DNA of 64,000 nt from Dethiobacter alkaliphilus (GTDB taxonomy: Bacteria > Bacillota > Dethiobacteria > DTU022 > UBA8154), in contig JAENYV010000015.1 of assembly GCA_016841605.1 (NCBI GenBank), positions 1-64,000 on the forward strand. The letters are read 5' to 3'. Both the position numbers and the translations under genes were made by a program. This document shows, in pieces, positions 9,619-20,924 of this stretch (its first letter is position 1; the number at the start of each line of letters is the position of its first letter). The notes under the pieces were generated by a model, which had not been told where the DNA came from, did not search any database, and saw only the letters and a program-made list of their open reading frames with translations.

Positions 9619-11008
9619 GGATTCCCCGGGGGTCAAATATTTTTTTAATTCTACCGAGGAGGGAGATCTCTGACTGTCCCATGACCAGGGGAAGATGTTT
9701 CTTTCTTTTATGGCCGATACCGTGTTCCCCGCTTAAAGTTCCGCCAAGTTCAGAGGATGTTTTGTAAAGTACTTTCAGCACATCTGCGGTGGACTGTCGC
9801 CACTTTTCTTCCGACATTCCCTCCTCTTTTAGCAGGTGGATATGAGTGTTTCCGTCTCCCAGATGGCCAAAGCCGGTACAGCCCAAGTTGTACCGGCCGG
9901 CAAGTTGGGTTGCTTTTTTTAAAAGGACGTGCATGGAAGCCGGAGGGACAACGATATCTTCAGCGATACTTCCGGGATGGAAGATTTTAAGAGCCTCTGA
10001 GATACGGGACCGCATTTTCCAAAAATTTTCTCTGGTGGAAGGCGTATTTGCTACATAGACGTCCAGGGCACCGGCTTGCAGGTAATAGTCTGCTACGGAG
10101 TTGTAATCCCTTTCAACCTGCTCCGGTTGGCCGTCAATTTCAAGCAGCAAAAAGCTTTCCGCTTTATCACCGTAAGGGACTTTCTTTTTCAGCAGGCGGC
10201 AGCTCAGATCCATGGCTTTACGATCTATCAGTTCCATAGCTGCAGGAATGATTCCCGTTTTTATCATCAACATTGGGGCTGTTTTGACAGTTGTTTCAAG
10301 GTCTTGAAAAGGGATCAGGAGTGTTGTCGCAGCCGGAGGAAGGGGAAGAACCTTAAGGATAATTTTGGTAAAAATTCCCAGTGTTCCTTCCGAGCCAATC
10401 ATCAGGTGGAGGATATCGTATCCGGTCACATCTTTGAGCCGTTTTCCTCCGAAATTTATAATTTCTCCACAGGGTAGAACGACTTCCAGTCCCAGGACAT
10501 AATTTCCGGTGACACCATATTTAACGGCTTTAGCTCCGCCGGCATTTTCGGCGACATTTCCACCAATGAAGCAGTTTTCCATGCTGATAGGGTATCCGGC
10601 ATAAAAGAGTCCGGCCTCCCGGAGGACGTTGTTGATCTCCCTGGTGACAACTCCGGGTTCGACGATAATCATGAGATTATCCCGGTCAACTTCCAGAATT
10701 CTGTTCATCCGTTCCAGGGAGAGGAGAATACCACCGCAGACGGGTACGGCACCCCCGGAGAGCCCGCTTCCGGCACCTCTTGGGGTGACTGGGATCATTT
10801 CATCATTGGCAAACTGCAATATTCGGGAAATCTCTGCCGCAGAAACAGGTTTTACGACCACTTCGGGCATATTGGTATAGCCTGGCTCATATATTTCATC
10901 ATGGCTGTAAGGTTCCATTTTATCAGCATTGTTGAAAATGATATGTTCAGATCCGACAATTTTTTGTAAACGGGAGGCGATCTCCGCTGTGATTCGGTTA
11001 TACTTCAC
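9590..11008 (-). CDS. glcD: FAD-linked oxidase, GlcD-like (glycolate/D-lactate)
   Basis: A 472-residue FAD-binding oxidoreductase of the VAO/GlcD type. The PRGAGSGLSGGAVPV and NAGGAKAVKYG segments form the FAD site, and the C-terminal FAD-oxidase domain ends in LSGEHGIGHKRKKHL. It probably oxidises D-lactate, glycolate or another 2-hydroxyacid; the natural acceptor is unknown because no GlcF or Etf gene is adjacent. GTG 11008 is preferred because GGAGGG lies 6-7 nt upstream; ATG 11026 lacks an SD. A 16-bp perfect palindrome lies 82 bp upstream and may be its operator. Confidence 0.85.
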   Translation of the reverse strand: MKYNRITAEIASRLQKIVGSEHIIFNNADKMEPYSHDEIYEPGYTNMPEVVVKPVSAAEISRILQFANDEMIPVTPRGAGSGLSGGAVPVCGGILLSLERMNRILEVDRDNLMIIVEPGVVTREINNVLREAGLFYAGYPISMENCFIGGNVAENAGGAKAVKYGVTGNYVLGLEVVLPCGEIINFGGKRLKDVTGYDILHLMIGSEGTLGIFTKIILKVLPLPPAATTLLIPFQDLETTVKTAPMLMIKTGIIPAAMELIDRKAMDLSCRLLKKKVPYGDKAESFLLLEIDGQPEQVERDYNSVADYYLQAGALDVYVANTPSTRENFWKMRSRISEALKIFHPGSIAEDIVVPPASMHVLLKKATQLAGRYNLGCTGFGHLGDGNTHIHLLKEEGMSEEKWRQSTADVLKVLYKTSSELGGTLSGEHGIGHKRKKHLPLVMGQSEISLLGRIKKIFDPRGILNPGKIFDW

Positions 11009-11149: not shown

Positions 11150-11177
11150 TTTACAACTCCCTTTGACGTGTTATAAT
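11150..11177 (+). promoter_or_regulatory. Sigma-A promoter for the prsA-like gene
   Basis: TTTACA (11150-11155) and TATAAT (11172-11177) with a 16-bp spacer, about 70 bp ahead of the GTG start. Confidence 0.65.
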
Positions 11178-11248: not shown

Positions 11249-12178
11249 GTGCGGAAAGCAAGAATTAAATATCTCATTGGTAGCTTTTCTCTTCTCGTTA
11301 TTATCTGTTTTCTTATTTTTACCGGTTGTTTAAACGGTCCGGAAAAAGAAATCGTAGCCAAGGTTAATGGAGAGGAGATAAGCCAGGAGGAACTGGACGA
11401 ATATCTGAAGCTTATTTACCTGTACTGGCCTGATTATCAAACGGCTTTCAGCGAGGAAGGACAGGTGGAAGCACTGAAACAGGAAGTCCTCTGGTTTTTA
11501 ATTGAAAACAGAATTTTAGATCAGGAAGTGAAAAAAATCGGATTGGAAGTCAATGAGGAGGAGATTAAAAAGAACTCCCAGGAGAGCAGGGATGAACTTA
11601 TTAAAAATATTTACAGCTCTGAGGATGAGTTTGTCTCCCGTTTACAGGAACTGGACTTGCAAGAAACCGCTTTGCAAATCATTTTCCGGGATGCACACCT
11701 GCGGGAACTTCTCTATACACATATTGGAAAAGATGTGACGGAAAAGGATGCCCGACAGTTTGTGGAGGAAAATCCGGCTTTTCTTGAGCGCTCACCTTAT
11801 GTCCATGCTTTTCATATCCTCGTGGAGACCGAGGAAGAAGCCAAAGAGGTTATTCAACTTCTGAAAGAGGGGGCAGATTTTGTGGAACTGGGCCGGGAGC
11901 GTTCCAAAGATAATTATGTGGAGCTCGGTCCTATCAGCCCTGAAGACAGCCTGGATCCTATTTTTTTGGAAGCGGCTTTTGCTTTGGAACCAGGAGAAAT
12001 AAGCCTTCCTGTGGAGACAAGTTTTGGTTTCCATGTTATAAAGATTACGGAAAAAGAAGAGGCAAAGACACTCACATTTGAGGAAGTTTATGATGAAGCT
12101 ATGGAAATGAGTAAACAGATGCTCTTTGAAGAGCATTTTGAACAGTTAATGAAGGATACACCCATCGAAACCTTTTAA
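11249..12178 (+). CDS. prsA: PrsA/SurA-like foldase lipoprotein (parvulin PPIase)
   Basis: A 309-residue exported chaperone. The N-terminal signal peptide has a lipobox ending FTGC near residue 27, so the mature protein is anchored on the outer face of the membrane. A SurA-type N-terminal chaperone region follows (VNGEEISQEELDEYL). The parvulin peptidyl-prolyl isomerase domain lies around residues 180-275 (HAFHILVETEEEAKEV ... SFGFHVIKI). GTG 11249 has GGGGGA about 6 nt upstream. It lies directly upstream of spoVT, the place where mfd/prsA-type genes commonly occur in Clostridia. Whether it serves general secretion or spore assembly cannot be told. Confidence 0.88.
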   Translation: MRKARIKYLIGSFSLLVIICFLIFTGCLNGPEKEIVAKVNGEEISQEELDEYLKLIYLYWPDYQTAFSEEGQVEALKQEVLWFLIENRILDQEVKKIGLEVNEEEIKKNSQESRDELIKNIYSSEDEFVSRLQELDLQETALQIIFRDAHLRELLYTHIGKDVTEKDARQFVEENPAFLERSPYVHAFHILVETEEEAKEVIQLLKEGADFVELGRERSKDNYVELGPISPEDSLDPIFLEAAFALEPGEISLPVETSFGFHVIKITEKEEAKTLTFEEVYDEAMEMSKQMLFEEHFEQLMKDTPIETF

Positions 12179-12187
12179 ACAGGAAAA

Positions 12188-12218
12188 TGAATAAAACCCC
12201 TCCTGAAGTTTAATACTA
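12188..12218 (+). promoter_or_regulatory. Candidate sigma-G promoter of spoVT
   Basis: TGAATA (12188-12193), an 18-bp spacer and AATACTA (12212-12218) resemble the sigma-G consensus (-35 TGAATA-like, -10 CATnnTA). B. subtilis spoVT is known to be sigma-G dependent. Expected initiation is near 12225. Confidence 0.5.
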
Positions 12219-12261
12219 AGGAAAAGTCTTAAAGAGTAACATTTAACAGGAAAAGGAGGGG
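12197..12261 (+). promoter_or_regulatory. Possible SD-sequestering stem in the spoVT leader
   Basis: CCCCTCCT at 12197-12204 is perfectly complementary to AGGAGGGG at 12254-12261, which is the spoVT ribosome binding site. The 8-bp stem would form only in RNAs that begin upstream of 12197, such as read-through from the prsA-like gene. Confidence 0.4.
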
Positions 12262-12269
12262 AACAGCAG

Positions 12270-12824
12270 GTGAAAGCAACGGGTATTGTCCGTCGTATTG
12301 ATGATCTTGGAAGAGTCGTTATCCCCAAGGAAATTAGGCGGACCCTTAAAATCAGGGAAGGTGACCCCCTGGAAATTTTTGTAGATCGTGATGGAGAAGT
12401 TATTCTAAAGAAATATTCGCCTATTGGCGAACTGGGTGATTTTGCGCAGGAATATGCGGATTCTTTGTATGAAGTCATGGGCCATGTTGCCTGTATTGCT
12501 GATAGAGATACAATTATCGCGGTTTCCGGTGCACCCAAAAAAGAATTTCTTAACCGCCCTCTCAGTGTTGCTGTGGAAAAAATTATGGAAACGCGTCGAA
12601 GTGTGCTGATTAATGATACATCACAGCATGAGATGTACCAAAACGTAGACGACGAAGGTCAATCCAAGTTTTTTGCCGAAGCAATTGCTCCCATTATATC
12701 AGAGGGCGACCCTATTGGTGCTGTCATCATGGGCACCAGAAACAGAGAAGTAACACTGGGTGATTTGGAGCTAAAGCTGGTAGAGACTGCGGCAGGGTTT
12801 TTAGCGAAACAAATGGAACAATAA
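12270..12824 (+). CDS. spoVT: Stage V sporulation transcription factor SpoVT
   Basis: A 184-residue regulator of late forespore genes. The N-terminal AbrB-type swapped-hairpin DNA-binding domain (VRRIDDLGRVVIPKEIRRTL, residues 7-26) is followed by a GAF-like C-terminal domain (residues 55-180). Length and both domains match B. subtilis SpoVT. GTG 12270 has AGGAGGGG 8 nt upstream. In the family it modulates sigma-G-dependent transcription and thereby spore coat and germination properties. It is followed by spoVB and mazG in the order usual for Firmicutes. Confidence 0.95.
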   Translation: MKATGIVRRIDDLGRVVIPKEIRRTLKIREGDPLEIFVDRDGEVILKKYSPIGELGDFAQEYADSLYEVMGHVACIADRDTIIAVSGAPKKEFLNRPLSVAVEKIMETRRSVLINDTSQHEMYQNVDDEGQSKFFAEAIAPIISEGDPIGAVIMGTRNREVTLGDLELKLVETAAGFLAKQMEQ

Positions 12825-12951: not shown

Positions 12952-12980
12952 AGTAACAGTACCATGTTACTGCTTTTTTT
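12952..12980 (+). terminator. Intrinsic terminator after spoVT
   Basis: AGTAACA (12952-12958) pairs with TGTTACT (12965-12971), followed closely by TTTTTTT. The stem is short and AT-rich. Confidence 0.5.
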
Positions 12981-20571: not shown

Positions 20572-20600
20572 GAATATTTTATAAACCTCTCCTGTATAAT
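20572..20600 (+). promoter_or_regulatory. Candidate sigma-E promoter of yabPQ
   Basis: GAATATT (20572-20578), a 14-bp spacer and TGTATAAT (20593-20600) fit the sigma-E pattern (ATATT, N14, CATACAnT). In B. subtilis yabP-yabQ are sigma-E dependent. SD and ATG follow within 25 bp. Confidence 0.45.
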
Positions 20601-20621
20601 GAAATAAAAAGGAGAGGTTTT

Positions 20622-20924
20622 ATGATGGATGAGAAATACATTTCCAAACAAATGACAAACCGGCACAGGCTAATGATTGATAACCGGGAGAAAATGGAGA
20701 TTTACGGCGTTTTGCATGTAGACAGCTTTGATGACAGGGAAATAATCCTGGAAACTGAACATGGTTTACTGGCTATGCGGGGGGAAGAACTGCACATAAA
20801 AAACCTTAATCTTGAACAGGGAGAGCTTACGGTCGAAGGTTTTCTCCTTGAACTGGCTTACTCGGAAATGAGAGGTTCGAGAAAAGACAGGGGAAAAAGT
20901 TTTTTCGAACGGCTTTTTAAATAA
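20622..20924 (+). CDS. yabP: Sporulation protein YabP
   Basis: A 100-residue cytoplasmic mother-cell protein of the YabP/YqfC family, recognised by the DNREKMEIYGVLHVDSFDD start and the short beta-rich core (LETEHGLLAMRGEELHI ... LTVEGFLLELAYSE). YabP is required for spore formation; its mechanism is not well defined. The gene has AAAGGAGAGG 4 nt before ATG 20622 and 7 nt before a second ATG at 20625. Its stop TAA abuts the ATG of yabQ. Confidence 0.93.
   Translation: MMDEKYISKQMTNRHRLMIDNREKMEIYGVLHVDSFDDREIILETEHGLLAMRGEELHIKNLNLEQGELTVEGFLLELAYSEMRGSRKDRGKSFFERLFK

Follow-up and report, generated by a model that had tools for sequence, protein, structure and literature searches.

Sporulation genes must stay silent in growth, yet some of them directly follow other genes. 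The spoVT gene of Dethiobacter alkaliphilus is such a case: it lies behind a co-directional gene for a foldase-like peptidylprolyl isomerase whose stop codon ends at position 12178, and the -35 element of its own promoter begins at 12188. No plus-strand terminator-like site was found between the two genes, either in a scan for terminator-like sites or in the search used for the comparison of loci. What, then, would keep spoVT from being translated on RNA that runs in from the gene upstream?

The spoVT leader and its predicted folding

The window, as we call the whole 64,000-nt stretch of DNA that was analysed, contains the following features around this junction.

11150–11177, plus strand: sigma-A-like promoter of the foldase gene, TTTACA-N16-TATAAT, 11 of 12 consensus positions and TG before the -10 (consensus match only)
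11249–12178, plus strand: gene for a foldase-like peptidylprolyl isomerase, oriented like spoVT (NF000809 scores best, 161.5 bits against a cut-off of 303)
12188–12193, plus strand: -35 element TGAATA of a forespore-type promoter (sequence)
12194–12211, plus strand: promoter spacer of 18 nt, containing the anti-Shine-Dalgarno (anti-SD) strand (sequence)
12197–12204, plus strand: anti-SD strand (5' arm), CCCCTCCT (sequence and comparison of loci)
12212–12218, plus strand: -10 element AATACTA (sequence)
12222–12226, plus strand: expected transcription start (from the spacing after the -10)
12254–12261, plus strand: spoVT Shine-Dalgarno (SD) sequence (3' arm), AGGAGGGG (sequence)
12270–12824, plus strand: spoVT with a GTG start (TIGR02851, 283.7 bits, cut-off 235.9)

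The earlier note had read a TGAATA-N18-AATACTA promoter and a perfect complement of the spoVT SD from the letters alone, and both were confirmed: the promoter elements span 12188–12218, and the anti-SD strand is the exact complement of the SD, giving a perfect stem of 8 bp with a 49-nt loop. Read-through RNA toward spoVT would likely stem from the sigma-A-like promoter listed above; the foldase-like gene that it precedes scores under the cut-offs of all NCBIfam models matched. On the 3' side of spoVT, AGTAACA/TGTTACT followed by a T run (12952–12980; read by eye, with the letters checked) is likely a terminator, and this site is absent from the list of the G+C-based terminator scan. No Rfam riboswitch or leader family matched above its gathering score between window positions 11000 and 21200.

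In predicted folds of RNAs carrying 20–900 nt of upstream sequence, the eight stem pairs have probabilities of 0.86–1.0 and the SD is unpaired with a probability of 0.01–0.02. For RNAs starting at 12222, 12224 or 12226, the predicted value is ~0.46, leaving the SD of the short spoVT RNA still about half paired. We propose, with a probability of roughly 0.75, that the spoVT leader is a translational insulator embedded in a promoter. RNA running in from the foldase gene would carry CCCCTCCT, this strand would pair with the SD, and spoVT in read-through RNA would stay untranslated. RNA made by the forespore polymerase would begin ~20 nt downstream of the anti-SD strand and, since it starts beyond CCCCTCCT, its SD would be freer. 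We infer all three of these elements, namely the read-through, the start position and the translational block.

An alternative explanation is that the complementarity has no function and arises by accident, the spacer being rich in C and the SD rich in G. Within this genome such matches do occur: when 86 nt upstream were tested, three of the 49 predicted window genes had 8 nt or more complementary to their own SD region. If the search is confined to the 18-nt stretch from -76 to -59, spoVT alone (1 of 49 genes) reaches 8 nt. Over 464 kb (the 64-kb window plus 400 kb of the same genome; 416 predicted genes), spoVT ranks fourth and yabP fifth by a score combining length and G+C, and five genes score at least 11, against 1.4 expected from swapped regions. 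A control on the window genes at a fixed distance of -82 to -65 (n = 49) gave no excess (z -0.34), with 3 of 49 reaching -12 kcal/mol and a swapped fraction of 0.046. By itself, the spoVT match in this single genome is mildly unusual and suggestive only.

Promoter and pairing across spoVT loci

For comparison, upstream regions of spoVT were collected from the genome's relatives, from public genome contigs (the best 80 of 568 loci) and from 100 regions hand-picked, with the aim of representing many families, among the matches listed for the order and phylum samples. Longer upstream regions were used for 60 of the 62 dereplicated loci of the phylum sample (L217 and L218 were left out). We dropped L030 (no full-length match), the paralogues L111–L118, L100 (incomplete upstream region) and 13 orthologous regions with a promoter score below 20, after which the removal of near-duplicates reduced the set from 195 to 139 loci. 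Tests collapsed by family comprise only loci with hand-assigned family labels, which the best 80 public-contig loci do not carry.

The promoter threshold was passed by 195 of the 208 orthologous spoVT regions with a scored candidate. Spacers of 16–19 nt were admitted in the search, those of 16 and 19 nt at the cost of one point, and the spacer proved to be 18 nt long in 130 and 17 nt in 9 of the 139 dereplicated loci. Forespore-type -35 and -10 motifs at 17–18 nt spacing are conserved upstream of spoVT orthologues, so that a forespore-type promoter is well supported by sequence comparison, and the anti-SD strand sits inside the spacer of this conserved promoter. We infer that the sigma factor reading it is of the sigma-G type. 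Excerpts of one study (PMC3789822) report spoVT of C. difficile to be controlled by sigma-F as well as by sigma-G, and both factors may likewise read the promoter here. A genome-wide search for the promoter pattern returned three sites, against one in a reversed control; the other two are L120 and L121. This genome also contains a second spoVT-like gene (L113; G000:C17:238028-238576; 65% identity), which is preceded by a promoter-like TGAATA-N18-AACACTA but has no anti-SD strand in the spacer.

We then compared how well each spacer pairs with the 28 nt preceding a start codon, taken either from its own locus or from the other loci. Across the 139 loci, the longest complement was 4.50 nt for own and 4.12 nt for swapped combinations, a difference reached by none of 20,000 permutations, and a complement of at least 7 nt occurred in 16 loci, against 6.6 expected. 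Duplex energies were -8.26 kcal/mol for own and -7.34 kcal/mol for swapped combinations (z -4.87), with 25 loci at -14 kcal/mol or lower, against 11.3 expected. When each of 54 families contributed a single locus, the excess persisted (median z -3.17, median p 0.001), as it did after removal of the window's family (z -4.49, n = 132). Pairing falls short of -12 kcal/mol in 110 of the 139 loci. The comparison across loci is what makes the predicted pairing of spacer and SD convincing.

An 18-nt window slid along the upstream region gave z values of 4.57 at offset -31, 4.80 at -25 and 3.49 at -19, all of which overlap the spacer; the next-highest values were 2.66 at -37, again with spacer overlap, and 2.38, 2.14 and 2.12 away from the spacer. 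This clear excess in spacer-overlapping windows places the anti-SD strand in a stretch that should be absent from RNA made at the forespore promoter. In predicted folds, the mean probability that the SD is unpaired is 0.15 in the long and 0.57 in the short RNA for the 16 loci with a complement of at least 7 nt, compared with 0.47 and 0.49, respectively, for the 90 loci with a complement of at most 4 nt.

The stems themselves vary greatly: L191 has ATTCCCTCCTTAAGGT (16 nt), L195 ATTCCCTTCCC (11 nt), L165 ATCCCCC and L151 CTTCCCTCC, and long interrupted helices are found in L138, L149, L170 and L194. Such diversity is the mark expected if pairing, as opposed to any particular sequence, is under selection. 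This variation bears on a second alternative, in which the spacer and the SD region are two inverted copies of a DNA site bound by a regulatory protein, for example SpoVT. The two strands do form an inverted repeat. In addition, the SpoVT protein carries a DNA-binding domain of the AbrB type (TIGR01439 match), and spoVT is autoregulated. The site of a conserved protein should nevertheless keep its sequence, whereas this repeat changes between lineages and stays self-complementary. As such a site would also leave the association with terminators described below unexplained, we consider it very improbable.

Covariation in relatives, which the earlier note had suggested as a check of the stem, is thus seen across families and does not extend to two groups taken alone, namely the Bacilli (26 loci, p 0.48) and the window's own family (-12.91 kcal/mol for own and -12.74 kcal/mol for swapped combinations, p 0.35). 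In L093 (B. mojavensis), L097 and L110 (both Bacillus), the spacer contains CATTTGATG or, in L110, CGTTTGATG, which pairs with CATCAAATG, a stretch immediately ahead of the spoVT SD. The pair CATTTGATG/CATCAAATG of L093 was considered as a blocking stem in Bacilli and rejected, given the lack of a group excess and a predicted fold that leaves the SD exposed.

Within the window's family, spoVT is present in 17 of 23 genomes (E up to 1e-30). At a mean of -12.91 kcal/mol, pairing in these 17 loci is stronger than with shuffled spacers (-7.34 kcal/mol, sd 0.58), and own and swapped values coincide because spacers rich in C and SDs rich in G are common to most members. This equality is also what an accident of composition would give. 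The earlier note had looked to close relatives for retained complementarity, and there it is lost in part: 13 of the 17 members reach -10 kcal/mol, while L002, of the same genus, has a spacer identical to the window's and an altered SD that keeps 5 bp (-9.5 kcal/mol), pairing is down to 4 bp in L008 (-6.7) and 5 bp in L009 (-9.6), and L012 is weak too (-9.4). In L013, L014 and L015, which belong to one genus, the SD GGGAGGG faces a spacer with CCCTCCC or CCTTCCC, with nine pairs in each.

Strong stems and missing predicted terminators

If the stem stops the translation of read-through RNA, it should matter where the polymerase is not stopped, and the proposed device would tend to occur at gene pairs that lack an intervening terminator. 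We used simple scripts to predict terminators and to identify upstream genes; 136 of the 139 loci were usable, 126 with a co-directional upstream call and 10 others. Mean pairing energy was -10.15 kcal/mol in loci without a predicted terminator (n = 70) and -5.82 kcal/mol in those with one (n = 56; Mann-Whitney p 2.8e-6). With strong pairing defined as -12 kcal/mol or lower, the predicted terminator is missing in 22 of 26 strong co-directional loci and in 48 of 100 weaker ones (Fisher p 5.9e-4); the 4 remaining strong loci have a terminator, and these 48 weaker loci have neither a strong stem nor a terminator. The association was stable at five cut-offs from -8 to -16 kcal/mol, with and without the window's family, and was found among the 58 loci whose gap of 30–120 nt leaves room for a terminator (p 0.006). 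When one locus per family was drawn from the 73 labelled loci (51 families), the median p was 0.008 for the raw energy and 0.014 for the composition-corrected excess, and a Fisher test on the averaged table was marginal (p 0.053). Four control windows showed no such association (p 0.24, 0.34, 0.69 and 0.69), which was confined to the spacer window.

Strong pairing also occurs in 3 of the 10 loci whose upstream call is not co-directional (L060, L177 and L194), compared with 26 of the 126 co-directional loci. L060 and L177 have a plus-strand ORF upstream as well, and at least six of the ten contain a long plus-strand ORF in the same stretch, so these calls are uncertain. Co-direction itself is not shown to matter.

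The earlier note's reading of a long mRNA that is blocked and a forespore mRNA that is free finds support in three comparative predictions: own pairing with the SD exceeds swapped pairing, the clear excess is limited to windows overlapping the spacer, and strong stems go with missing predicted terminators. Composition would lead one to expect neither the cross-lineage excess nor its position nor the link with missing predicted terminators, and the composition-corrected excess retains the terminator association (p 1.3e-5). The promoter surroundings are conserved for other reasons, which is a further point on the side of accident; taken together, we regard a functionless match as unlikely.

A last alternative retains the stem and gives it another role. 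In L005, L012, L017, L049, L063 and others, the TAA stop codon of the upstream gene lies inside the -35 region (TGAATAA), so that the gene end and the promoter overlap. The stop codon thereby abuts the anti-SD strand in some relatives (for example L005, L012 and L017), and terminating ribosomes there might cover this strand and open the stem. The leader could then be a conditional switch, with spoVT translationally coupled to the foldase gene to provide a low basal supply. In the window, 18 nt separate the foldase stop codon from the anti-SD strand, which is beyond the usual reach of a terminating ribosome, and the gap is 36–69 nt wide in ten strong loci that lack a predicted terminator (L050, L151, L169, L142, L186, L170, L034, L154, L044 and L058). 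These distances argue against coupling, which we judge to be improbable.

Similar leaders at other genes and in known systems

The insulator reading of spoVT gains context from other genes. At yabP, the window contains a comparable arrangement.

20572–20600, plus strand: sigma-E-like promoter of yabP, GAATATTT at 20572–20579 and TATAAT at 20595–20600 (motif match to the sigma-E consensus)
20583–20593, plus strand: yabP anti-SD strand AAACCTCTCCT, inside the promoter spacer (sequence)
20610–20620, plus strand: yabP SD AGGAGAGGTTT, the perfect 11-bp partner of 20583–20593 (sequence)
20622–20924, plus strand: yabP (TIGR02892, 100.2 bits, cut-off 75.4)

Sigma-E-like elements were matched at yabP in 14 of 17 family members. 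From 45 yabP loci among the matches listed, 44 had a start and 41 remained after dereplication; in these 41, own pairing exceeded swapped pairing in the window from -50 to -30 (z -4.86), and windows from -90 to -60 showed some excess as well. Here, covariation of the stem is seen within the window's family (p 0.0008, 14 loci).

For sigG, 14 of 30 loci among the matches listed passed the promoter threshold, and the excess of own over swapped pairing (p 0.028) is suggestive only; L296 and L297, which have the same strong stem and lie below the threshold, were left out of this test, as was L301. In the sigG leader of this genome (L342, reverse complement of ~2435–2480), GATACTT and AAGTATC can form a stem of 7 bp; the first, the 5' arm, overlaps a -10-like sequence, and the second, the 3' arm, directly follows the SD. 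In L296, L300, L301, L305 and L308, too, the 5' arm of the ribosome-binding-site (RBS) stem is in the promoter, an arrangement like that proposed for B. subtilis sigG read-through RNA. The intended control gene, gpr, was uninformative, with 3 of 30 loci among the matches listed passing the promoter threshold. The strongest RBS stem of the 416 scanned genes is that of L413 (3999–4196, minus strand; G000:C8:173999-174196), in which AAATCACCTCCTTT pairs perfectly over 14 nt with the SD region; its 65-aa product has a hydrophobic start and no Pfam match. With the stems of yabP and sigG, the spoVT leader looks like one case of a broader design.

One close precedent is B. subtilis sigG (spoIIIG) itself. 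Excerpts of PMC5942855 credit Masuda 1988 and Sun 1991 with the proposal: when transcription runs through from the spoIIGA-sigE operon, the resulting RNA is predicted to form a hairpin that prevents translation and that is unable to fold in transcripts from the gene's own promoter. The spoVT stem is likewise predicted to silence read-through RNA only, with RNA from its own promoter lacking it. The spoVT case differs from these excerpts in the gene concerned, in its stem (8 bp with a 49-nt loop, compared with 20+ bp), in the location of the anti-SD strand in the -35/-10 spacer, in its recurrence in many lineages and in its association with missing predicted terminators. The same excerpts describe a small RBS hairpin in the sigG leader that dampens translation. 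This too is RBS pairing at a sporulation gene, with the effect at spoVT being a predicted one; the small hairpin lies inside the RNA from the sigG promoter, whereas the stem at spoVT can form only with sequence from before the expected start.

Phage T4 offers a parallel outside bacteria. As described in excerpts of PMC3014915, long early mRNAs of gene e and I-TevI carry a stem over the ribosome site, while late promoters just upstream yield efficiently translated RNA from which the 5' strand is missing; the paper also names soc and gene 49 as having inhibitory structures in the initiation region. The logic at gene e and I-TevI is the same, in that the long RNA covers the ribosome site and promoter-proximal RNA lacks the 5' strand. 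T4 differs in using phage late promoters with reported experimental support, whereas spoVT is a bacterial developmental gene for which the evidence is comparative only. Our literature search, which covered few subscription journals, found no paper on such a leader at spoVT.

We give even odds to the wider proposal that an anti-SD strand in the spacer of a developmental promoter is a recurrent, general form of insulation in spore-forming Bacillota, replacing termination at spoVT, yabP, sigG and probably others. If this is true, compartment-specific genes would be made immune to read-through, with translational insulation being used where a terminator is missing. For spoVT, the insulator reading provides a concrete and testable answer to the question raised at the outset: where the polymerase is not stopped, the ribosome would be. 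It would extend a hairpin proposed for one B. subtilis gene to a pattern spanning many lineages, in which stems trade off measurably against terminators, and it cautions that the timing of such gene products may be misread from RNA abundance alone.
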